Assembly: GCA_944327245.1 (NCBI GenBank)
Contig: CALVHD010000009.1
Span: 1 to 64,000 of the forward strand
Direction: 5' to 3'
Length of the DNA stretch: 64,000 nt
Source: Candidatus Gastranaerophilales bacterium
GTDB taxonomy: Bacteria; Cyanobacteriota; Vampirovibrionia; Gastranaerophilales; Gastranaerophilaceae
Shown here: positions 7,670 through 43,988 of the stretch, in pieces
How the letters are laid out: each line of letters starts with the position of its first letter
Position numbering within the stretch: position 1 is the first letter of the stretch
Translations under genes and position numbers: made by a program
The notes under the pieces: model-generated
Told to the model about the DNA's origin: nothing
Seen by the model: the letters and a program-made list of their open reading frames with translations, nothing else
Database searches by the model: none

Positions 7670-7936
7670 TTATTTTCTATCTAATTTAGGTTCAGGCATA
7701 TCTATGTTTCTATCTGTTTTTTCAACTTCAGGCAGAATATTTTTGCTATTGTAAATTTCTTTCAGTTTTTCTTTTGTTTGAATAAAAACATATTCTTTTT
7801 CTTCATCATTAAAATCATATTTATCAATAGCTGCTCTTATTTGTTCATCAGACGGCATCGATAAAGCAGATGAATTTTTTTCAAAACCCATAGCAAAAGA
7901 CAATAAAAGAAATAAAATAAGTAATGTTTTTTTCAT
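7670..7936 (-). CDS. Small exported protein, 88 aa
   Basis: Not recognised. The first about 25 residues form a Sec signal peptide (MKKTLLILFLLLSFAMG, then a likely cut before or after SALS). The mature part of about 63 residues is charged and mostly helical (DEQIRAAIDKYDFNDEEKEYVFIQTKEKLKEIY) and ends in a Pro/Lys/Asp-rich tail. There is no lipobox Cys. It is a single gene on the minus strand between the sigma factor and the flavoprotein gene. It probably acts in the periplasm, but nothing indicates its role. Confidence 0.65.
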   Translation of the reverse strand: MKKTLLILFLLLSFAMGFEKNSSALSMPSDEQIRAAIDKYDFNDEEKEYVFIQTKEKLKEIYNSKNILPEVEKTDRNIDMPEPKLDRK

Positions 7937-7987
7937 TTTTCACCAAATAATAAATTATCAATTTTATTTTTATAATAGAATAATTTT

Positions 7988-9352
7988 ATGGATTTTGTAA
8001 ATGAATTAAAAAAAATTTGTCCTGATAATCTTCTTTATAAAAAAGAAGATGTATTTGTCTATGCTTATGATACATCTCAAAATCCTGATAACATAGTTTT
8101 GCCAAAAGCTGTCGTTTTTCCTAAAAATACTGTTGAAGTATCTAAAATTGTTAAATTTGCTTATGAAAATAATATTTCTATAATACCCAGAGCAGCAGGA
8201 ACAAATCATTGCGGTGCAACAAGACCAAGCGAAAATTCTATTGTAGTTCATTTTTCAAAAATGAACAAAATAATTAAAATAGACAAAGAAAATTTAATTG
8301 CTATAGTTGAGCCCAATGTTGTTATTGGAAATTTAAATAAAGAGCTGGATAAACTAAATCTTTTCTTTCCTCCTGATCCATCCAATTTAGCTGTTTCAAC
8401 CATAGGAGGAGCGATTGCTTTGTGTGCCGGAGGCCCCAGAACTTTTAAATACGGCAATACTAAAGATTATGTTATTAATCTTGAAGTTGTTTTAGCGGAT
8501 GGGTCAATAATTGAAACATCAAAAAATTTAGCTAAAAATGTTACAGGTTACAATATTACAAGTCTTTTTGTAGGGTCAGAAGGTACGCTTGGTTTAATTA
8601 CGAAAGCAACCCTTAGATTAATTCCAAAGCCGCAAACAAGGCTTTTGACCATGGCTTATTTTGATAGTTTGGTTGAAGCGGCAAAGTGTGTTAATGAAAT
8701 AATAAATCAGGGTTTTGTTCCTTCAACACTTGATTTATTAGATAAATATACTATTCAAACAATTGAAAAATTCATTTCTTGTGGTCTTTTAGTTGATAAA
8801 GAAGCTATGCTTTTAATTGAGCTTGACGGATTTAAACAAAGTGTTTTATATGAGTTAGAAATTTTAAAAGAAATTTTGGAAAAGTGCGGTGCAAAAAATA
8901 TTGTTCAAGCAAAAAATGATGAAGAAAATGAAAACATTTGGAGAGCAAGAAGAAGCGCATTTTCTGCTTTAACCCAAATAAAACCTTCAGTAGTTACAGA
9001 AGATATAGTTGTTGCAAGAAATAGGATAGTAGATATAATTAAAAAAATTCAAGAATTATCTAAAAAATATAATATTATAACTGCCACTATGGGTCATGCC
9101 GGAGATGGTAACATACATCCTAATTTTGCGCTAGATTTAGAAAAAGATAAAGATAATTTTCAAAAATTAAAAGATGAGTTGTTTTACTATGCTCTGTCTA
9201 TAGATGGAACACTATCAGGTGAACATGGTGTCGGCACTCATAAGAAAAAATATATTAAAGAAGCAATTGAAAAAAATGCTTATATGGTTATGAAGCAAAT
9301 TAAAAAATTACTGGATGAGAAAAATATCCTAAATCCTAATAAGACATTATGA
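7988..9352 (+). CDS. FAD-linked oxidase, GlcD/D-lactate dehydrogenase type, 454 aa
   Basis: A flavoprotein of the FAD_binding_4 plus FAD-oxidase C family, which oxidises 2-hydroxy acids such as glycolate or D-lactate. The PP-loop is seen in IIPRAAGTNHCGATRPSE, followed by PDPSNLAVSTIGGAIA and VGSEGTLGLITKATLRLIP. The C-terminal domain has the metal/substrate motifs MGHAGDGNIHPN and SGEHGVGTHKKKY. The length fits the family. There is no Fe-S GlcF partner. The gene overlaps the next by four bases (ATGA), so it is translationally coupled to the MATE transporter. A TATAAT at 7971-7976 lies 11 bases before the ATG and there is no Shine-Dalgarno, so the message may be nearly leaderless. Confidence 0.9.
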   Translation: MDFVNELKKICPDNLLYKKEDVFVYAYDTSQNPDNIVLPKAVVFPKNTVEVSKIVKFAYENNISIIPRAAGTNHCGATRPSENSIVVHFSKMNKIIKIDKENLIAIVEPNVVIGNLNKELDKLNLFFPPDPSNLAVSTIGGAIALCAGGPRTFKYGNTKDYVINLEVVLADGSIIETSKNLAKNVTGYNITSLFVGSEGTLGLITKATLRLIPKPQTRLLTMAYFDSLVEAAKCVNEIINQGFVPSTLDLLDKYTIQTIEKFISCGLLVDKEAMLLIELDGFKQSVLYELEILKEILEKCGAKNIVQAKNDEENENIWRARRSAFSALTQIKPSVVTEDIVVARNRIVDIIKKIQELSKKYNIITATMGHAGDGNIHPNFALDLEKDKDNFQKLKDELFYYALSIDGTLSGEHGVGTHKKKYIKEAIEKNAYMVMKQIKKLLDEKNILNPNKTL

Positions 9353-10674
9353 TTGAAAAATTAAAAGAATATAGAGAAATAATTTTAAATTTAGTTAAAT
9401 TATCTTTGCCGATTTTGGGGGGTAATTTAGCGCAAATCTTGGTAAGCTTTGCCGACACTATTGTTGCAGGAAGACATTCAACGGTTGCATTGGGTGCAAT
9501 AAGTGTTGCAAGCGCAATTGTAATGACGATAACTATAGGAGTTATCGGATTAATTTTAAGCATAAGCCCTACCATTGCAAATTTTAGAGGGCAAAAAATT
9601 CCATCTAAAAGATATTTTAAATTAACCCTATTATTTTCTTTTTTGGCTTCAATCCCCTTTTTTATTGTTCTAAAAGTATTGTTGCTTAATATTGATTTAA
9701 TCGGATTAAGTCCTGAAATTGCTCATCCTGTTAAGCAATATATTGAAATTTGCGCATGGACAATATTTCCATCTGCAATTTTTACAGCCCTAAAAGAGTT
9801 TTTGCAGGCTTATGAAAAGGTTGTTTTTGCTAATTTATTAATGCTTTTTATGGTTGTATTAAATTTAATTTTGAATATAGTTTTAACTTTCGGGTTTAAT
9901 TTTTCGTTCATTCATATTGAAGCTCTTGGGGTTGTAGGGCTTTCAATCGCGACATTATTATCAAAAACTTTGGTTGCAGTATTTATGATTTTATATTGTT
10001 TACCATTGTTTAAAACTCCTTTTGAAGCTTCAAAAAAATATGTTAAAGATTTAGTTAAAATGGGAGCGCCTATTTCTTTTGCAATGTTTTTTGAATTTTT
10101 GGGCTTTAATTTAACCGCTGTTTTAATAGGAAAATTCGGTGCGTTATATGCCGGTGTTCATAATATTATCCTTTGTATTGCTAATATGACTTTTATGATT
10201 GTTTTATCAATAGCAAGTGCTGCAAGTGTTAAAATAGGATACTATAACGGAAAGAATGATAAACAAAATATCATTGATTATTCAATAGCAAATATTTTGA
10301 TGACAATTTTTGTTTGTTTAACAACTTTCGTAATTTTAGAAATATGGTCAAGAGACATTATTTCTGTCTTTTCAGGTGATATTAGAGTTATTGAATTAAG
10401 TGAAAAAATATTAAAAATAGCAATGGCGTTTTTATTCTTTGATGGTATTCAAGGCGCATGTGTAGGCATTTTAAAAGGTTTAAAAGATACAAAGATTATT
10501 ATGTTTACAATGCTTTTCGGGTATTTAATTATAGCAATTCCACTAGGCTGCTATTTGGCATTTCATAAAGGTATTATATTAGAAGGATTTTGGCTTGGTT
10601 TAGCTTTGGCATTATTCTTTGCGGCAATAATAACCTCCAGCAGGGTTATATACGACATAAGAAAGATGAAGTAA
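9349..10674 (+). CDS. MATE-family efflux transporter, 441 aa
   Basis: An integral membrane Na+- or H+-coupled multidrug/toxin exporter with about 12 hydrophobic segments in two halves. The first helix region reads LSLPILGGNLAQILVSFADTIVAGRHSTVALGA, matching the MATE start 'P.i...l......D...vg.lg..alaa'. The second half begins MGAPISFAMFFEFLGFN. Length and layout are normal. The ATG overlaps the stop of the GlcD-type gene, which ties the two functionally, perhaps through export of a metabolite or toxic acid. That link is only positional. Confidence 0.9.
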   Translation: MIEKLKEYREIILNLVKLSLPILGGNLAQILVSFADTIVAGRHSTVALGAISVASAIVMTITIGVIGLILSISPTIANFRGQKIPSKRYFKLTLLFSFLASIPFFIVLKVLLLNIDLIGLSPEIAHPVKQYIEICAWTIFPSAIFTALKEFLQAYEKVVFANLLMLFMVVLNLILNIVLTFGFNFSFIHIEALGVVGLSIATLLSKTLVAVFMILYCLPLFKTPFEASKKYVKDLVKMGAPISFAMFFEFLGFNLTAVLIGKFGALYAGVHNIILCIANMTFMIVLSIASAASVKIGYYNGKNDKQNIIDYSIANILMTIFVCLTTFVILEIWSRDIISVFSGDIRVIELSEKILKIAMAFLFFDGIQGACVGILKGLKDTKIIMFTMLFGYLIIAIPLGCYLAFHKGIILEGFWLGLALALFFAAIITSSRVIYDIRKMK

Positions 10675-10749
10675 TAAATTTAAAAATTGTAAACTTAAAA
10701 AAATAAAAATACTTAAAAAATAATTTTTTCTATGATTAAATAATTTATT

Positions 10750-11886
10750 ATGAAACATTTGACATTAAATGATATAAAAATACCAAAGCCAAATTTTGGT
10801 GTTTCTAAAACGCCAAAAGGTCAAGTTGTTTCAGCTTGGTTGATAGATTGGATTAAACATTCTCTTGAATACGGCATAGCGGATATTGGAGATTTTATAC
10901 CGACAAAAGAAGAACTTGCCGGTTTTTTGGGTGTTTCAAGCGCAACCATGCAAAATTCTATTAGACAAGTTAAGGACTTGGGTTATTTTTCCTCAAAACA
11001 ATCTTTAGGTACTTGTATAGCTGATTTTTATTCTAAAGATATAAAGCCTCAAGACGAATTATGCCATGGTTCGATTGCAGAATGTAAAATCAAGAAAATA
11101 GTCTTGGATGAAAAAATAAAGATAAATGAACCGATTTTATCTATTTCAGAATTGTCACGAATGACTGATATTTCCCAAAATACAATCAGATTTACTCTTG
11201 TAAAGTTGGCTCAAAAAGGATATTTAGAAAAAGTTCATTTAAAAGGCAATAAATATTCATGGATATATAAAAAAGAATTTGAACTAACACAAGAAGAACT
11301 CTTAAACGGAATAGAAGATGAGGATTTTACTTTAACTCATCAATTGGTTGATAAAATTCAGAAATATATTGAAAAAACATATAAACAAGGAGAAAAAATT
11401 CTTCCCAACATGGCATTTTCGGCGATGTTTGATGTTAGCATTAAAACAGTTAATGATGCAATGAAGATTTTAAATGCGAAAAAGGTAATTTTATCTCGAA
11501 GAGGAAGATATGGAACAATATATTTAGGGGAAAACAGATTAAATAAAACCTCTTTTGTAAGCAGTGAAAGAAGAAAATTAAATTCTTCTCAAAAATATAT
11601 CTATTCTTGGCAAAAAGCATTGGGACATTTAAAAAAATATATAATAGAAAATTATGAAATAGGGGATAAAATTGCTCCTATAAGAGAACTTGCTTCTATA
11701 TTAAACGTTAGTCCAAATACAATAAGGCGGGCTTTGGTTACATTGTTTCAAAGCGGCCATCTTGTTTCAAAAAGGGGTAAATTAGGCGGTATATTTATTA
11801 TGGATATGCCTGAGCCGGATGAAGATGCTTATAGATGGCTTGCAATAAATCCTGAAGTTATAAGTATAGGGGATAGTGATAATTAG
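10750..11886 (+). CDS. Regulator with four tandem winged-helix (GntR-like) units, 378 aa
   Basis: Four consecutive GntR/MarR-like winged-helix segments can be read, and no effector domain. Unit 1 is at about 24-92 (TKEELAGFLGVSSATMQNSI, then LGYFSSKQSLGT). Unit 2 is at about 108-175 (SISELSRMTDISQNTIRFTL, then KGYLEK). Unit 3 is at about 195-262 (MFDVSIKTVNDAMKIL, then RRGRYGTIYL). Unit 4 is at about 283-352 (IRELASILNVSPNTIRRALV, then SGHLVSKRGKLGGIF). Units 1, 3 and 4 have the GntR order of helix, 'lP..reLA..l.VS..Tv..Al..L...G.l..rrg.Gt'. Usual GntR proteins have one such unit plus a ligand domain. The gene stands alone. Its target is unknown; the RND operon downstream is a candidate. Confidence 0.8.
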   Translation: MKHLTLNDIKIPKPNFGVSKTPKGQVVSAWLIDWIKHSLEYGIADIGDFIPTKEELAGFLGVSSATMQNSIRQVKDLGYFSSKQSLGTCIADFYSKDIKPQDELCHGSIAECKIKKIVLDEKIKINEPILSISELSRMTDISQNTIRFTLVKLAQKGYLEKVHLKGNKYSWIYKKEFELTQEELLNGIEDEDFTLTHQLVDKIQKYIEKTYKQGEKILPNMAFSAMFDVSIKTVNDAMKILNAKKVILSRRGRYGTIYLGENRLNKTSFVSSERRKLNSSQKYIYSWQKALGHLKKYIIENYEIGDKIAPIRELASILNVSPNTIRRALVTLFQSGHLVSKRGKLGGIFIMDMPEPDEDAYRWLAINPEVISIGDSDN

Positions 11887-26376: not shown

Positions 26377-27828
26377 CTAAATTTTGCCCAAAATGGTTAA
26401 TTTATAGTCAGGAGCTACTTCTTCAAAACAAATAACAGGAATATCCATAAATAATTGTGATACAAGAATGAATATAATTTGTCTGTATTGTTGCGCCACA
26501 ATTAGAACTGCACTTTGATTTATTAAATCTTCTTTTGTTTCTTTAAGGAGTTTTTTGAATTTAGAAAATTTAGATAAATCTATTTTAACGCTTGATTCAT
26601 TGTTATTGGTTTGTTTTTCCAATAATTCAAGAGTATCATCATCTATTTCATATGCAAAAATCTCTTTTTCTTTATTAGAAACGCTTTGAGAAATTTGCCT
26701 TGAAAGCGCCATTCTTAATTTATCCAGTAAATCTGCTTTATTGGGGTCATCAGAAAAGTCGTTCAATTTTTCAAAAATATAAACAATATCTTTAATGCTT
26801 ACTTTTTCTCTGATTAGCTGTCCTAAAAGATATTTAAGTTCTGAAATGCTGATATAATCGCCTAAGATTGTATCAGTTAAGAATGAATTTTGGTTATTTA
26901 CAAATTCAACATATCTGTTTAAATCATTATAATCGAAGATTTCATCAACATGAACAATTGCATAATAGCTTAAATAGCTTGCTATATATTCAGCGGGTTC
27001 TATTCCTTCTATCCAGAAATTTTCGCATTGGCTTTTTTCAATCCAAATCATTTTTCTTTTGGTTAGCGGATCTTTAATTTTGAATGAATTTTTTGGAGGT
27101 TTGTCCAGATTTAATTCATCTTCAAAAAAAGCAAGATGATTAGGATATGCTTTTGAATTTGCAACATTTACCCCATGGATATTGATGGAAAAATCATAAG
27201 CATCTAAAGATGTATTTTCAATAAATTGAACTTTTGGAATTATATAACCAAGCTCATTTGTTAATTCTTGTCTTACTTTGACGGTTTGAGATAAAAGATT
27301 TTTTTCTGTTTTTATATCGCAAAGTGAATAATTTTCACAAGAAAGACTAATTGAAAGCTTTTCTTCGCCTAAAAATTTAACCATTTTAGATGGAGCTAAG
27401 ACGTCTTTTAAATCTTTTTTTAAATTGTTCAATTCATCAATATCTTTTTTTATTTCGTCGTTTAAAATTTCTCTTTCTTCATCTTTTGAGGTTTCAAGAA
27501 ATTTTTTTACACGTTCAATTTTATCTTTTTTGTCATTTATTTTCTTTTGTAAATTAAGACAAAGCTCATATGGCTCTTCTTTTGAATAGAGCATTTTTTC
27601 AACAGAATTTCTGAAGTTAATAATGTCGTCATTATTTTCTTCTTGTTGATTTTCAACTTCTTTTACAAATATGCAGTTATAAACTATTTTTGAATTTTGT
27701 TCTGCTTCATATATTGAATATAATTCCCATCCGGAAACAGACATGGCGTTTAGTGTGTTTTCAAGCAACAGAGCGTCTTCTGTCGGTATTTGTTTAATGG
27801 AATACTCTTGTCTAAATTGTTTCATCAT
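26377..27828 (-). CDS. Soluble FlhA cytoplasmic-domain paralogue with DUF4177-like N-terminus and coiled coil, 483 aa
   Basis: Residues about 155-483 align with the cytoplasmic half of FlhA (SctV family) encoded at 41904. LTNELGYIIPKVQF (189-202) matches VTDDLGYIIPNIRI (387-400). LIREKVSIKDIVYIFEKL (338-355) matches LIREKVSIKDVIFIFERL (539-556). LLDKLRMALSRQISQSVSNKEK matches LSERLRAALGRQICLSNVNKEK. The end FMDIPVICFEEVAPDYKL matches HIPTIVVISYSELITDIR. FlhA's eight membrane helices are absent. Residues 1-58 instead form a small domain with LLENTLNAMSVSGWELYSIY, like DUF4177 ('LN..g..GWEl'). A charged coiled coil spans about 85-145. FlhA's cytoplasmic ring docks chaperone-substrate complexes; a free copy could compete, adapt or regulate. 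It is probably co-transcribed with the 113-aa gene 43 bases upstream. Confidence 0.85.
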   Translation of the reverse strand: MMKQFRQEYSIKQIPTEDALLLENTLNAMSVSGWELYSIYEAEQNSKIVYNCIFVKEVENQQEENNDDIINFRNSVEKMLYSKEEPYELCLNLQKKINDKKDKIERVKKFLETSKDEEREILNDEIKKDIDELNNLKKDLKDVLAPSKMVKFLGEEKLSISLSCENYSLCDIKTEKNLLSQTVKVRQELTNELGYIIPKVQFIENTSLDAYDFSINIHGVNVANSKAYPNHLAFFEDELNLDKPPKNSFKIKDPLTKRKMIWIEKSQCENFWIEGIEPAEYIASYLSYYAIVHVDEIFDYNDLNRYVEFVNNQNSFLTDTILGDYISISELKYLLGQLIREKVSIKDIVYIFEKLNDFSDDPNKADLLDKLRMALSRQISQSVSNKEKEIFAYEIDDDTLELLEKQTNNNESSVKIDLSKFSKFKKLLKETKEDLINQSAVLIVAQQYRQIIFILVSQLFMDIPVICFEEVAPDYKLTILGKI

Positions 27829-37373: not shown

Positions 37374-38033
37374 ATGTTTAGTCCGCAAATACAAAATTAT
37401 ATAAATTCTTCTTCTCAAGCTCAAGCTTTCAGTCGTGTTAATGAGCTTAATCGTTATATTGATTCTATTTATCCTCAAACCCCTGAAATTAAACAAACTT
37501 CGGCTTTTGATGAGATTTTAGCTGAATCAAAAAATGAAGTTGAGTCAAACAGCGTTTTTGAACTCGACACCCCTCCAATGTTGAAAGATGATATCAAGAC
37601 TCTTCCTTTTGGTTCTTTAAGCGGCTTAAAGGGTGCTTCAGGAGCTGTTTCAAATACTAAAGAAGCAATTTTAAGTTATATAAAAGATGCAAGTGAAAAA
37701 TATAATGTAGATGAAAAATTAATTAAGGCACTGATAAAACAAGAGTCAAATTTCAATCCTAATGCCGTTTCTTCAGTTGGTGCAAAAGGGTTAATGCAGT
37801 TAATGCCTCAAACAGCTAAATCTTTAGGAGTAATTAATTCTTTTAATCCAAAAGAAAATATCGATGGCGGAGTTAAATATTTAAAACAAATGCTTGATAA
37901 ATATAACGGAAATAAAATTTTAGCCCTTGCGGCTTATAACGCAGGACCTTCAGCCGTTGATAAGTATAACGGGATTCCTCCTTATAAAGAAACTCAAAAT
38001 TATGTTAAATCTGTGTTAGCTAATTATCTATAA
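37374..38033 (+). CDS. Lytic transglycosylase (SLT domain), 219 aa
   Basis: A peptidoglycan-cleaving enzyme at the head of the flagellar cluster. The first about 90 residues are low-complexity and lack a standard signal peptide. The SLT domain (about 95-219) has the catalytic Glu in [55 protein letters not shown] and [20 protein letters not shown]. The missing Sec signal and the position next to fliE suggest export through the flagellar gate to open peptidoglycan for the rod, like FlgJ or SltF in other bacteria. That role is inferred. fliE starts 11 bases after the stop. A GGGG/AAAGG region precedes the ATG. Confidence 0.88.
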
Positions 38034-38044
38034 AGGACAAGAAA

Positions 38045-38353
38045 ATGGATAAAATAAATCAGGTTAATTTTTTTAGAACAAATCGATTGGAACCTTTGGA
38101 AGCTAATATTTCAATAGATTCCAATGATACAAATGTTAAAAGTTTTAAAAATGTTGTAGCTGATATGATGCAAGAGTTAAACGAGGTTACAAATAAGCCG
38201 GAGCAATTGACTCAAGATGCTATGCTTGGTAAAGCCGATGTTCATGACGTTATGGCAGCGATTGCTCAAAGTGAGATTACGGTTCAAGCTGCAACAACCA
38301 TAACCGGAAAAATACTACAAACATATGAGAAAATAATGCAAATACAGATTTAG
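38045..38353 (+). CDS. fliE: Flagellar hook-basal body protein FliE, 102 aa
   Basis: The adaptor between the MS ring and the rod. The second half carries the family pattern: SFKNVVADMMQELNEVTNKP, AMLGKADVHDVMAAIAQSEI and AATTITGKILQTYEKIMQIQ, matching 'Ll.g.....D.hdVmia.eKA...lql..qvRnk...AYqEimrmqi'. The terminal arginine-rich part differs (TTITGKILQTYEKI). Length and placement before fliF are typical. ATG is preceded by AAAGGA. Confidence 0.88.
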   Translation: MDKINQVNFFRTNRLEPLEANISIDSNDTNVKSFKNVVADMMQELNEVTNKPEQLTQDAMLGKADVHDVMAAIAQSEITVQAATTITGKILQTYEKIMQIQI

Positions 38354-38401
38354 TCTTAACTTTAGCAAATTATGATAGTATAATTTAATTAAAAGAACAG
38401 T

Positions 38402-40111
38402 ATGGAAAAATTTGACCTAAAAAAGATAATTGAAAATAAACCGCTTTTATACACTATAGTTGCCGCTATAGTGGTTGTCGTTGTAATGTTTGTTATTATG
38501 ATGTCTGTTATGGTCAATGTTGGTTCTGCCGGTACTCAGGGGCAAGATAAGCAAATTAAACAAGCTGAAAAAGTAATTAAAAATGACCCCGTAACATTAT
38601 TTACAACTGAAAATTCCGGTAAGGCTCTTGAAGTTCAGGCTCTTTTGGCACGTGAACAGATTGTTGCCACAAAAGTTGAAAACGGTTCAAAAGTTAGTAT
38701 TGTTTTAAAAGAATATACTCAAGATCAAAGAGACAGAGCCCTTTTGGCTATTGTTAAAAGCGGGCTTTTAGATGAACATACGGGGTTAGAAATATTTGAT
38801 AAAGGAGACTTTACATCAACAAAAGATGATAAAAAGATTAAATTAATAAGAGCAATAAACGGTGAGCTTGCCCGTTTAATAAGGAAAATTCCTCCTATTG
38901 AAAATGCACAGGTGTTTATTTCTATTCCTGAACAAACATTCTTTTCTCAAGATCAAAAGCCTACGACAGCTACAGTTCAAATTACTATGCCATCAGGTGA
39001 ACGTCTTGACAATATGAAAGTTAAAGCAATATCAAATTTGCTATTAGGTGCAGTACATGGATTGCAAGCCGATAATATTTCAATAACAGATACAAACGGC
39101 AATGTATATAATTCTATTATTGGTGCTTCTGATGATGCAATTGCTAAATTGGAAGAAAATGATAAATACATGCAATCAAAAGTTAATGCTCAATTAGATA
39201 AATTGATAGGTAAAGGTAATTATATAGCTACTGTTTCAACATTTTTAACTCAGGCTCCCGTTGAAAAAACCAGCATATTATATGATCCTGATCAAAAAAC
39301 TTCAGTTTCAGAGCAGCAATTTAGAGAAAATTTGGGAGATAATCATAATGATTCATCAACATCAGGCATGAATCCTGTTAGTGTCTATGTTCCTGATGGA
39401 GTAAAAGGAGCCGTACAGTCCGGTTCATCAAGCCAAGACAGACAATATTCTCGTTCTGCTGTTGAAACTCAATATGGAGTATCTAAGACACAAGTTAGCG
39501 AATATACATCAGCAGGCACCATTGAAGAAATAACAGTCGCTGTTTCTATTGAGGAAAATGCAATTCCGACAAACATGAGTCTTTATGAATTAAAGACTTT
39601 AATTGCGCATGCTGCAAGTCCTAAGGTAGATCCTGAAAATGTTTCAATTGCTTTTGTTGAATCTAGCAGCCTTGTTTTGGCGCCTGAAAAAGAAAATGAA
39701 TTACCTAAAGTTGAAGAGTCAGGAAATCCTTGGTGGGTTGTGGGTGCACTTCTTTTAATAGGTCTTATTTTGGGTCTTGGTCATATAGGTAAAAAGGTTA
39801 AAGATGAAGCAAGAAAACAAGAAGAAGAGCTTGAATATTTAAGACAAATTGCAGCAAGTCAAGAACAGCAATTGAAAGATGTTTCTCAACAGGCTTCAAG
39901 TTTGATTGCTCAACAAGAACAAATGGCGCAAAGTTTTATTGAACAAAAAAACCAATATGCGCTTGCTCTTGAACAAGCTAAGTCGGCTGCAGCTGCAACT
40001 AAACCAAAGCATAATCTGTCTGATGCAATTGATGAATTGGAATCCGATTTTAATTCTATGGATGAAAATGAAGCAATAGAAAAAATCAAAAATTGGATTG
40101 AAAATGCGTAA
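38402..40111 (+). CDS. fliF: Flagellar MS-ring protein FliF, 569 aa
   Basis: Forms the MS ring in the inner membrane, the base of the flagellar motor and export gate. N-terminal membrane helix at about 16-38; ring-building motifs TLFTTENSGKALEVQALLAR and IPPIENAQVFISIPEQTFFS; the variable periplasmic part GKGNYIATVSTFLT to about 365. A second membrane helix (WWVVGALLLIGLILGL) lies at about 445-462. The cytoplasmic tail has a Gln/Glu coiled coil and ends NEAIEKIKNWIENA, the FliG-binding helix type. The flagellar rather than injectisome form is supported by two membrane helices and the long tail. Confidence 0.92.
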   Translation: MEKFDLKKIIENKPLLYTIVAAIVVVVVMFVIMMSVMVNVGSAGTQGQDKQIKQAEKVIKNDPVTLFTTENSGKALEVQALLAREQIVATKVENGSKVSIVLKEYTQDQRDRALLAIVKSGLLDEHTGLEIFDKGDFTSTKDDKKIKLIRAINGELARLIRKIPPIENAQVFISIPEQTFFSQDQKPTTATVQITMPSGERLDNMKVKAISNLLLGAVHGLQADNISITDTNGNVYNSIIGASDDAIAKLEENDKYMQSKVNAQLDKLIGKGNYIATVSTFLTQAPVEKTSILYDPDQKTSVSEQQFRENLGDNHNDSSTSGMNPVSVYVPDGVKGAVQSGSSSQDRQYSRSAVETQYGVSKTQVSEYTSAGTIEEITVAVSIEENAIPTNMSLYELKTLIAHAASPKVDPENVSIAFVESSSLVLAPEKENELPKVEESGNPWWVVGALLLIGLILGLGHIGKKVKDEARKQEEELEYLRQIAASQEQQLKDVSQQASSLIAQQEQMAQSFIEQKNQYALALEQAKSAAAATKPKHNLSDAIDELESDFNSMDENEAIEKIKNWIENA

Positions 40112-40138
40112 AAGTTGATTGGGGAATAAAAGAGAAAA

Positions 40139-41092
40139 ATGGCGGAAACTGATATAAAAACTTTTAATTTTGAAGCTTTTGCCAAAGACTTGTCTAATCA
40201 GGCAAGTCAGGTTATTCCTAATGACATAAAAAAACCGGATAGAGAGTTTATTGTTGAAATTATATATCGTTTTTGCGTGATGGCGGGAGATGCTCTGGTT
40301 AAGGAAGAGAATTCCAAGCTAAATGCTCAAGAAGCAAGTCTTGTTACTCAATTTATAGGTGAGTGGATTTTTCATAAATCAATTGACTTAATAAGAGCAA
40401 AAATTGATCCGCAATATAGAGAAGGTGTATTGCAAAAAGTTGCCTTCACTGTCTTTGATATAGCCAAAAAGGCCGTTGAAAAACAAATTCCTCAAGAGCA
40501 ATTGATATCACTTGTTGAAGCACAAGTTAAAAAATCTTTCACAAAGGCCATGGAAGATTTAAAAAGCAGGGGCATAATATCTGAACAAACAACTCAAAAT
40601 GCTTTATCTCAATCAAACATTGATGCAATGGCACAAGAGCAGATAAAAGAAGAAACAATGACAGATATTGCCTGTATGAGTGATGAAAAGATAATTAAAC
40701 TTGCTTCTTTGGCTATTTTGATAAGAAATTTTCCAAGTGAGAAAATGAAAAGTATTTTGCAAAAGTTCAATAAGCCTGAGCGTGAAGTTTTGATTAAATA
40801 TTTAAAAATGCCAGATTTAGAAGAAAAAATGGATGCTAAGGCTACGATGAGGTGTTTTGAAGAAATGAAAAATGCATTGCCTGAAGCTGTTGTTGTTAGT
40901 TATGACAAAGCGTATAAAAAATTGTGTAAAATTGTTAAAAATTCGAATAAAAATCAAATTTTGAATATTATAGAAAATGAAAGACCAAATGTACAAGAAT
41001 ATGTTTTGTCTTGCTATGATAAAAAAAGAAAAAAAATTCCGGCTTATATTGCAGATGTCATATCTAAATATTTAGAAGAAAATGTTTCATGA
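40139..41092 (+). CDS. Divergent FliG-position protein (motor switch FliG or equivalent), 317 aa
   Basis: It lies between fliF and fliH where fliG is expected, and length fits FliG (about 330). The sequence is helical throughout but I do not find the usual FliG opening (QKAAILLxSLG) or its EHPQ motif. SDEKIIKLASLAILIRNFPS with EKMKSILQKFNKPEREVLIK could correspond to the armadillo-like middle domain. VQEYVLSCYDKKRKKIPAYI could correspond to the torque-helix region with charged residues. FliF ends in a FliG-binding-like helix, which supports the assignment. An alternative is a SctK-like adaptor. It stops TGA and overlaps fliH by four bases (ATGA). Confidence 0.6.
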   Translation: MAETDIKTFNFEAFAKDLSNQASQVIPNDIKKPDREFIVEIIYRFCVMAGDALVKEENSKLNAQEASLVTQFIGEWIFHKSIDLIRAKIDPQYREGVLQKVAFTVFDIAKKAVEKQIPQEQLISLVEAQVKKSFTKAMEDLKSRGIISEQTTQNALSQSNIDAMAQEQIKEETMTDIACMSDEKIIKLASLAILIRNFPSEKMKSILQKFNKPEREVLIKYLKMPDLEEKMDAKATMRCFEEMKNALPEAVVVSYDKAYKKLCKIVKNSNKNQILNIIENERPNVQEYVLSCYDKKRKKIPAYIADVISKYLEENVS

Positions 41093-41901
41093 TAATTAGA
41101 AAACAAAATATTCAAAATAGAAAATCTCAGCAATCTTCTTCAGATAAAATTGTCAAAAGAGGCAATATCATAAAAAAAGAAGATTTGCTTTTGGATGTTG
41201 AAAATGTTTTAGGGGACACAAAAGAGACAGAACCCAATGCGCCTATACAAAAGCCGAAGGTTAGTGAAGAAACTGTATCAGAGACTTTTGAAAAAATTGA
41301 TATTTCTTCAATTGAATTTAAAGAAAGAGTTGAAAGAAGACGTGGTGATAGAAGACGCGGCTATAGAAGAATAGACGAAAGGTCTTTAGTTTCAAGAGCT
41401 CAACAAGAAGCTCATTCAATTAAAGAATTAGCAGCAAGAGAGGGTTACCAAAACGGTTTACAAAAAGCGCAAGATGAAGTAGAAGAAATAAAGACTTCTT
41501 TGAGTGAATTTTTGGCATTAAAAAATGAAATGTATGAAGAATTTTATCCTCATATTATGGAAATTGCTGTGGAAATAGCCAAAAAAATCATTAAAAAAGA
41601 AGTAGAATTGTCACAAGATGTCTTGAAAAATATTATTATGTCTGTTTTGGATGAAATTCATTCTGATTGCGAAAAAGTAATGATTAAAGTAAATCCTTCC
41701 GATGTAGAGTTTGCGAGTGCATCTTTGCCTGAAATTTTAAGTGCAAAAAATGTAAGCGCAAAAGTTAATATTGTACCTGATGAAACAATCGAAAAGGGAA
41801 GTTGTGCTGTTGTTGCCAATAATGGTGTTATTGATGCTAATTTTAAAACACAATTGGCGGTCTTGCAGAGTGCTTTTGGCATATATAAAGGAGGGGTATA
41901 A
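41089..41901 (+). CDS. fliH: Flagellar export ATPase regulator FliH, 270 aa
   Basis: The stator that links the export ATPase to the switch complex. After a disordered N-terminal about 85 residues comes a strikingly cationic stretch, ERRRGDRRRGYRRIDER (about 82-98). The helical FliH region follows (AREGYQNGLQKAQDEVEEIK, IAVEIAKKIIKKEVELSQDV). The C-terminal domain includes IKVNPSDVEFA, VNIVPDETIEKGSCAVVANN and GVIDANFKTQLAVLQSAF, typical of FliH/SctL. fliI, which usually follows, is absent; flhA comes next instead. Confidence 0.88.
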   Translation: MIIRKQNIQNRKSQQSSSDKIVKRGNIIKKEDLLLDVENVLGDTKETEPNAPIQKPKVSEETVSETFEKIDISSIEFKERVERRRGDRRRGYRRIDERSLVSRAQQEAHSIKELAAREGYQNGLQKAQDEVEEIKTSLSEFLALKNEMYEEFYPHIMEIAVEIAKKIIKKEVELSQDVLKNIIMSVLDEIHSDCEKVMIKVNPSDVEFASASLPEILSAKNVSAKVNIVPDETIEKGSCAVVANNGVIDANFKTQLAVLQSAFGIYKGGV

Positions 41902-41903
41902 AA

Positions 41904-43988
41904 TTGGCAGCTCCTCAGCAAAACTCTAATCCGATTTCTGAAATTGCATTAGCCGCTTTTGTCATTGTTTTAATATTAATTTTATTATTGGAAATGCCTA
42001 ATTGGGTAATTAATTTTTCAATCAGTTTTAATATTACACTTGGCATTGTTTTGTTAATGATTTCATTATATGTTAATAAGCCTCTTGAATTGGCGGCTTT
42101 TCCATCAATACTTTTGATTGGAACGGTGTTTAGATTGGTTTTATCTATTGCATCAACTCGTTTAATTTTAGCTAAAGGGGACGCCGGACAAGTCGTTGAA
42201 GCATTCGGACACTTTGTTACGGGTGGAAACATGGTTGTTGGCGGTGTAATTTTCTTAATTATTACCGTTGTTCAATTTATGGTAATCACAAAGGGTGCTG
42301 AGCGTATTGCTGAAGTTTCAGCCAGATTTGCGCTGGATGCTATGCCGGGTAAACAAATGACAATAGATGCAGACTTTAATGCCGGATTAATTTCTCCTGA
42401 AGAGGCGGTTAAAAGACGTGAAGATTTACAAAGAGAGTCAAGTCTTTATGGTTCAATGGATGGTGCTATGAAATTTGTTAAAGGTGATACTATAGCCGGT
42501 ATCATTATTACTTTAATAAATATCATAGGCGGCTTAATCATTGGTATTTTATTAAACGGTATGGCTCCTGCGGATGCTGTTCAAAAATATACAATTTTGA
42601 CCATTGGTGATGGTTTAGCGGCGCAAGTTCCATCTTTATTAATGGCAATTTCATCAGGCATTGTGATGACTCGTGCAACAGGCGGCGGAGTTGCACTGGG
42701 TTCAGATTTGGCTATTGAAATTTTATCAAAACCGACAAGTTTATTTTTAGCTTCAGGATTTTTGATTTTAATTGCTTTGACATCAGGTATTACAGGTTTA
42801 CCTTGGTTTCCGTTTTTAGTATTTGCTGTTATTTTGATTTGCGGTGGTTTATCTGTATTGGTAAATCAAGATGTTCAACAGCAATTAGGACAATTGGATG
42901 CTGTTAAACAAAATATGCAAGATTTAGTTAATCCTAATAAAATGTATGAAAGATTAGGTGTAGATGTTTTATCTTTGCAAGTGGGGGCGGGGCTTTTAGT
43001 TATTGCAGACCCTGAACAAGACGGTCAATTATTGGCAAAAATTGCAGCGCTAAGACAAAGAGTAACAGATGATTTAGGTTATATTATTCCAAATATAAGA
43101 ATTATGGACTCCAGTGCTATTGGTGATAATGAGTATTTAATTTCAATCAGAGGTAACCCAGTTGCAACAGGTACTGTGTATCCCGGTAAATTAATGGTTA
43201 TAGCTGATCAATATGATGCATTAGGAAAAAAATTACCTGAAAATGCTATTGTTTCAGTGGAGCCGACTTTCCAATCACAAGCGTATTGGCTAAATCCTCA
43301 ACATATAGGTAAAAATGATAAAATCCAAGCAGTTGATGCTGTGGATGTAATTGTTACACACTTACAAGAGTGTGTTCGTAAGTATGTTGATGAAATTATG
43401 ACCAAAACCGATGTTCTAAAGTTAATGGAGCTTGTTAAATCTCAAGATCCGACACTGGTTAATGACCTTGTGCCTACAATTATTTCAACTTCTGATTTAA
43501 GAAAGATTTTTGTAAATCTTATTAGAGAAAAGGTTTCAATTAAAGATGTTATCTTTATTTTTGAAAGATTATGTGATTATGCAAGGTTTTCAAAAGAACC
43601 GGATATTTTATCAGAAAGACTAAGAGCGGCATTAGGCAGGCAAATTTGTCTTTCTAATGTAAACAAGGAAAAAGTCTTATATGCTTTAACACTTTCATCA
43701 GAATGGGAAAAAACCCTTGATGACAGTTGCCAAAGAACAGAGTTGGGTACAATGTTTTTACTAAATCCAATGCAAGTTCAAGAGCTTATTGAATCAACAG
43801 CAAATACTTTAATGAGAGCACAGGCCGCTGTTGGAGTTCAGCCTGTAATATTGTGTTCTCCAAGAATAAGATTGCCTTTATATCAAATGCTTGAGCGTCA
43901 TATACCAACTATTGTTGTTATTTCATATTCTGAATTAATAACCGATATTAGAGTTGAAGCAATTGATACTATTGGAGAAGGCTATTAG
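41904..43988 (+). CDS. flhA: Flagellar export gate protein FlhA, 694 aa
   Basis: The large gate subunit of the flagellar type III export apparatus. Membrane helices fill about 15-320. The FHIPEP signature RFALDAMPGKQMTIDADFNA is at about 141-160 and the conserved loop reads RREDLQRESSLYGSMDGAMK. The cytoplasmic domain (about 345-694) carries DDLGYIIPNIRI, NLIREKVSIKDVIFIFERL and LRAALGRQICL. The start is TTG 41904, supported by GGAGGGG 10 bases upstream and three bases after the fliH stop. A paralogue of only the cytoplasmic domain is encoded at 26377-27828. Confidence 0.96.
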   Translation: MAAPQQNSNPISEIALAAFVIVLILILLLEMPNWVINFSISFNITLGIVLLMISLYVNKPLELAAFPSILLIGTVFRLVLSIASTRLILAKGDAGQVVEAFGHFVTGGNMVVGGVIFLIITVVQFMVITKGAERIAEVSARFALDAMPGKQMTIDADFNAGLISPEEAVKRREDLQRESSLYGSMDGAMKFVKGDTIAGIIITLINIIGGLIIGILLNGMAPADAVQKYTILTIGDGLAAQVPSLLMAISSGIVMTRATGGGVALGSDLAIEILSKPTSLFLASGFLILIALTSGITGLPWFPFLVFAVILICGGLSVLVNQDVQQQLGQLDAVKQNMQDLVNPNKMYERLGVDVLSLQVGAGLLVIADPEQDGQLLAKIAALRQRVTDDLGYIIPNIRIMDSSAIGDNEYLISIRGNPVATGTVYPGKLMVIADQYDALGKKLPENAIVSVEPTFQSQAYWLNPQHIGKNDKIQAVDAVDVIVTHLQECVRKYVDEIMTKTDVLKLMELVKSQDPTLVNDLVPTIISTSDLRKIFVNLIREKVSIKDVIFIFERLCDYARFSKEPDILSERLRAALGRQICLSNVNKEKVLYALTLSSEWEKTLDDSCQRTELGTMFLLNPMQVQELIESTANTLMRAQAAVGVQPVILCSPRIRLPLYQMLERHIPTIVVISYSELITDIRVEAIDTIGEGY

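Follow-up and report, generated by a model that had tools for sequence, protein, structure and literature searches.

As a rule, the FlhA and SctV proteins of the FHIPEP family are gate subunits anchored in the membrane; their ring also serves as a substrate dock, and their domain D4 borders the FliJ/SctO cleft. The FlhX-type proteins (Helicobacter HP1575) are free FlhB C-domain proteins that reportedly act as a spare part for FlhB-C. In Salmonella FlhA, chaperone-substrate pairs bind to the dimple of Asp456, Phe459, and Thr490, and the ring is stabilised by the linker, which touches D1 and D3 of the adjacent subunit (PMC8166844). Non-flagellar type III systems that originated from the flagellum have been described (Abby and Rocha 2012, PMC3459982), and non-motile genomes were found to hold a subset of flagellar genes unable to make a flagellum (Soo et al. 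2014, PMC4040986). In the papers searched, no description was found of a soluble FlhA, of a soluble FlhA paralogue in non-flagellar type III systems, or of a Melainabacteria type III system.

In the window, which is the whole stretch of 64,000 nucleotides analysed here, the ORF at 26377..27828 encodes a soluble FlhA cytoplasmic-domain protein of 483 aa, hereafter called S. This ORF, reported in the initial annotation with no strand given, is real and lies on the minus strand, with its ATG start at 27828 and its stop codon at 26377-26379. The homology to the cytoplasmic half of FlhA, also proposed there, was borne out by a profile search, in which residues 129-475 of S cover positions 321-656 of the 657 in the Pfam FHIPEP profile (E 1.5e-46). 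The predicted structure of S (from 23 sequences, pLDDT 81) matched the solved FlhA cytoplasmic domain 6ch1 with Z 29.6 over 325 residues at 4.0 A. As in FlhA/SctV, the end of the linker, domains D1-D4, and the LIREKVSIKD and IFEK..D motifs are present. Nevertheless, S differs from these proteins in that the dimple is lost and a DUF4177-like domain with a coiled coil stands in place of the membrane half. Its scores are below the NCBIfam equivalog cut-offs for both FlhA (149.9 against 772.1 bits) and SctV (91 against 692 bits). The FlhA encoded 15 kb away (41904..43988), with which near-identical blocks had been noted, is not the flagellar FlhA, which is located on another contig (C3). Short stretches such as LIREKVSIKD do agree between this protein and S, but the overall identity is only 27% over 367 columns (E 6e-44).

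The absence of membrane helices was also confirmed. A membrane domain with multiple helices is absent from S, in which the FHIPEP match begins only at profile position 321. The maximum 19-residue Kyte-Doolittle mean among 47 members of the S family is 2.1, reached in a D4 helix, against 3.0 by the same measure in the membrane part of the full-length FlhA nearby. Likewise, no membrane half was found in any frame in the 22-34 kb region of the window. S is a complete FlhA cytoplasmic domain without a membrane segment.

Three parts can be distinguished in S, all on the minus strand. Residues 146-483 and the stop codon (26377..27393) comprise the end of the FlhA linker followed by D1-D4, of which D1 and D3 are conserved and D2 and D4 divergent. 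Residues 61-145 (27394..27648) comprise a tether (60-84, predicted with low confidence), a conserved helix (PY..C..Q), and an antiparallel coiled coil, and occupy the position of the FlhA membrane half. This coiled coil, already noticed in front of the FlhA domain, is predicted as a hairpin of helices 86-111 and 116-143. Residues 1-60 (27649..27828) form the DUF4177-like domain, the best-conserved part of S and the one with its lowest dN/dS, in which L26, N27, M29, W34, L36, Y37, E41, C52, I53, and F54 are invariant.

The DUF4177-like character of this front domain was upheld in part. Its predicted beta-alpha-beta-beta fold (pLDDT 93.5) and its GWEL-type motif are consistent with DUF4177 (PF13783), whose profile matched weakly in 12 of 23 relatives (best E 3.2e-4). 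However, the window copy is not matched by the profile, and the domain is here fused to FlhA-C. A search for it in other proteins of 11 genomes returned nothing but one chance-level match (E 0.46), and a fold search gave no match below E 0.001, with weak likeness to the KCTD5 C-domain and to dodecin. The initial view that a family of this form is undescribed agrees with the papers searched, and a free soluble FlhA-C with a DUF4177-like front is apparently a new form of the known FlhA family.

The class-wide search covered 290 genomes, all metagenome assemblies, of which 217 belong to the Gastranaerophilales, an order of non-photosynthetic cyanobacteria living in the gut; the count for S was taken from the result table. 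Intact copies of S were found in 214 of these 217 genomes, aflagellate ones included, the exceptions being G029, G030, and G311. Among the genomes from other orders, 35 carry FlhA; S is absent from them at this profile level, and only scores at the level of full-length FlhA were obtained. The family members are about 483-506 aa long with open frames, and a dN/dS of 0.04-0.10 indicates a conserved gene under purifying selection. The presence of the cytoplasmic half alone could suggest a decaying flhA fragment. This explanation was rejected and has practically no probability left, given the wide occurrence in the order, the intact frames, the low dN/dS, the fixed new N-terminal domain, and the lack of a membrane half nearby; the gene is a conserved soluble one, as first supposed, and not a frameshifted flhA.

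The genes beside S differ across diverse genomes of the order, with no fixed neighbour. Those encoding the 113-aa protein, the HAD, the DUF4145-like, and the PleD-like proteins lie next to S only in the five closest genomes, the PleD-like gene being a partial exception. The surrounding block, which had been regarded as the best candidate for an undescribed system, was therefore rejected as a local gene system, since these neighbours are common only to the closest relatives. The host genome has three FHIPEP genes: one full-length on contig C3, one full-length in the window, and S.

The full-length FlhA of the window belongs to a second export set, hereafter set N, distinct from the flagellar set F on contig C3 (FlhA, FlhB, FliR, FliQ, and FliP). 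On the plus strand, and in an operon order kept across the Gastranaerophilales, set N comprises genes for a lytic transglycosylase (SLT; 37374..38033), FliE (38045..38353), FliF (38402..40111; 112 bits, under the NCBIfam flagellar cut-off of 129.75), a protein in the FliG position (40139..41092) that matches none of the FliG profiles of Pfam and NCBIfam and lacks a torque (FliG_C) domain, FliH (41089..41901), and full-length FlhA (41904..43988), the type from which S derives. This FlhA is below both the FlhA cut-off (684 against 772 bits) and the SctV cut-off (590 against 692 bits). Contig C15 carries the set-N FliM/N-like protein, FliO, FliP, FliQ, and FliR, and further genes of set N, for an FlhB, an FliI, and FlgB/C-like proteins of its own, lie elsewhere in the genome. 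The whole export core of FliP, FliQ, FliR, FlhA, FlhB, and FliI was found for set N.

Eight genomes have a single FliP, of the set-N type; FliG_C is absent from all eight and flagellin from seven, G027 having one flagellin gene. Set N is thus kept without flagellin and FliG_C and survives without a flagellum. Judged by its gene content, it is a predicted second, flagellum-like, non-flagellar type III export set. It resembles the systems of Abby and Rocha (2012, PMC3459982) as a flagellum-like export set without flagellin or torque domain, and differs from them in retaining FliE, FliF, FliO, and FlgB/C-like rod genes. Part of the flagellar subset of Soo et al. (2014, PMC4040986) may be set N. 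These results suggest that common gut bacteria possess a second export machine, which looks intact, separate, and retained across the order.

Other features of the set were observed. Set N is present in essentially every sampled Gastranaerophilales genome (window 37374-43988; L086:7852-11597). Its FliQ (L086:10311-10805) is 164 aa long with a long C-terminal tail, about twice the flagellar FliQ of the same genome (89 aa). In G040, an additional half-length copy of the FliG-position gene stands immediately ahead of the full one (L059:9342-9905), and in G044 the flagellar and non-flagellar flhA genes adjoin end to end and are convergent (L097:6862-8976 and 8979-11087).

In the tree of FlhA cytoplasmic domains, the S sequences formed one clade (99/94), nested in the group of set-N FlhA (98/83) and separate from flagellar FlhA. 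At several positions that distinguish the two FlhA types, S also has the set-N residue (P344, M347, Q385, Y393, F553, D558, and Q580 in set-N numbering), and its identity is 28% to set-N FlhA against 21% to flagellar FlhA. The tree and these residues indicate that S arose once in the Gastranaerophilales from a set-N FlhA, with the membrane half exchanged for the DUF4177-like domain and the coiled coil; it is almost certainly a conserved soluble paralogue of that protein. Like FlhX, as far as the latter is reported, S is a free cytoplasmic half of an export-gate protein beside the full-length one. FlhX concerns FlhB, whereas S concerns FlhA, has lost functional residues of FlhA-C, and has gained new domains.

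S is kept without flagellin, a second FliP, or FliG_C in G010, G028, G033, G034, and G047, and likewise in G027 save for its one flagellin. A role as partner of the flagellum was rejected, because S persists in these aflagellate genomes and is nearer to set-N FlhA. For the same reasons we regard it as accessory to set N, with which it probably acts. In G029 and G030, of two genera, set N occurs without S, so S is dispensable.

The dimple was compared among the three FlhA types. The equivalent of Asp456 is kept in 23 of 24 S proteins. The equivalent of Phe459 is aromatic in all set-N (17/17) and set-F (13/13) FlhA but in none of the 24 S proteins, and that of Thr490 is T or S in the same 17 and 13 FlhA proteins but in only 7 of the 24. 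The canonical chaperone dimple is thus lost in S. The earlier suggestion of a chaperone dock is weakened by this result. In its favour, FlhA-C is already known to dock chaperones (PMC8166844), the Asp456 equivalent persists, and the N-terminal domain could be a new binding site; but the set-N and the flagellar FlhA of these genomes retain the residues that S has lost, and a dedicated role of S in docking some special class of chaperone-substrate pairs is very unlikely. Mean identity within S is 47% in the linker and D1 and 49% in D3, against 36% in D2 and 27% in D4. The conservation of the linker, D1, and D3 together with the loss of dimple residues suggests that ring-type packing was kept and docking was not. 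A free FlhA-C stripped of its dock residues would be a naturally occurring case in which ring building is uncoupled from substrate docking.

Then, we propose that S may be an accessory subunit of the set-N export machine, packing on or beside the gate ring, a reading to which we give an even chance. Its linker, D1, and D3, the known ring contacts of FlhA-C, would pack on or beside the nine-membered ring of set-N FlhA; packing through D1 and D3 is itself possible, at somewhat less than an even chance. The N-terminal module would stand in for the membrane anchor, and S would not deliver classical chaperone-substrate pairs, because the canonical dimple is absent and D2 and D4 are divergent. Its role would rather be to adapt or regulate the gate, the DUF4177-like domain and the coiled coil recruiting a set-specific partner. 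More tentatively, and with considerable doubt, the set-N gate ring could be heteromeric, built of full-length FlhA and a soluble, dock-less FlhA-C with a DUF4177-like head, plus a smaller FlhA-C in some lineages, with these subunits governing which substrates are let through.

Some observations argue against S as an accessory of set N. No conserved gene neighbour joins S to set N, G029 and G030 hold set N without it, and S diverges far faster than set-N FlhA (mean identity 39% against 79%), which could mean a separate job. In addition, G219 and G306 have S with no full FlhA match, although the missing set-N FlhA is probably an assembly gap, because FliP is still there. The orphan position and the fast divergence, together with the new, highly conserved N-terminal domain and the loss of the export-specific dimple, would also be expected if S formed a soluble ring or scaffold of its own, with the ring-forming domain reused for a cytosolic task unrelated to secretion. 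We consider this unlikely, because S is found only in the order where set N is near-universal, its D1, D3, and linker are still recognisably set-N like, and in G126 a set-N FliG-position sequence is joined to a sister FlhA-C module.

It is less likely still that S serves as a soluble decoy, or brake, which keeps the export machine off until needed by binding cytosolic partners of the gate (FliH, FliI, a FliJ-like stalk, or the linker of FlhA). S is a soluble copy of an interaction hub, keeps part of the linker, and has the distribution of a dispensable accessory, all of which would suit a brake; but D4 is its least conserved domain, unlike what a mimic of the FliJ/SctO-cleft surface would need.

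The fusion in G126 (contig C9, L158:7042-8823) is a 593-aa protein in which residues 1-185 match the FliG-position proteins of set N (iE 9e-16); a hydrophobic segment comes next, and after it an FlhA-C without D2. This protein links FlhA-C modules to set N. In G187 and G197, FlhA-C mini-proteins of 215-285 aa have only D1 and D3 (L159:7567-8424; L160:6037-6684 and 7804-8520; L161:3001-3750), two of them with one N-terminal hydrophobic segment; in the FlhA-C tree, their positions are on long branches. These D2-less forms fit D1 and D3 as the useful part. In G060, from another order, a membrane-less FlhA-C with a different N-terminus has a contig break inside (L162:7803-8726 and L163:9378-9917), and its halves, at two contig ends, were joined solely for the tree, where it grouped with the FlhA of its own genome (100/100). 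This form was derived independently, so detached FlhA-C modules arose more than once.
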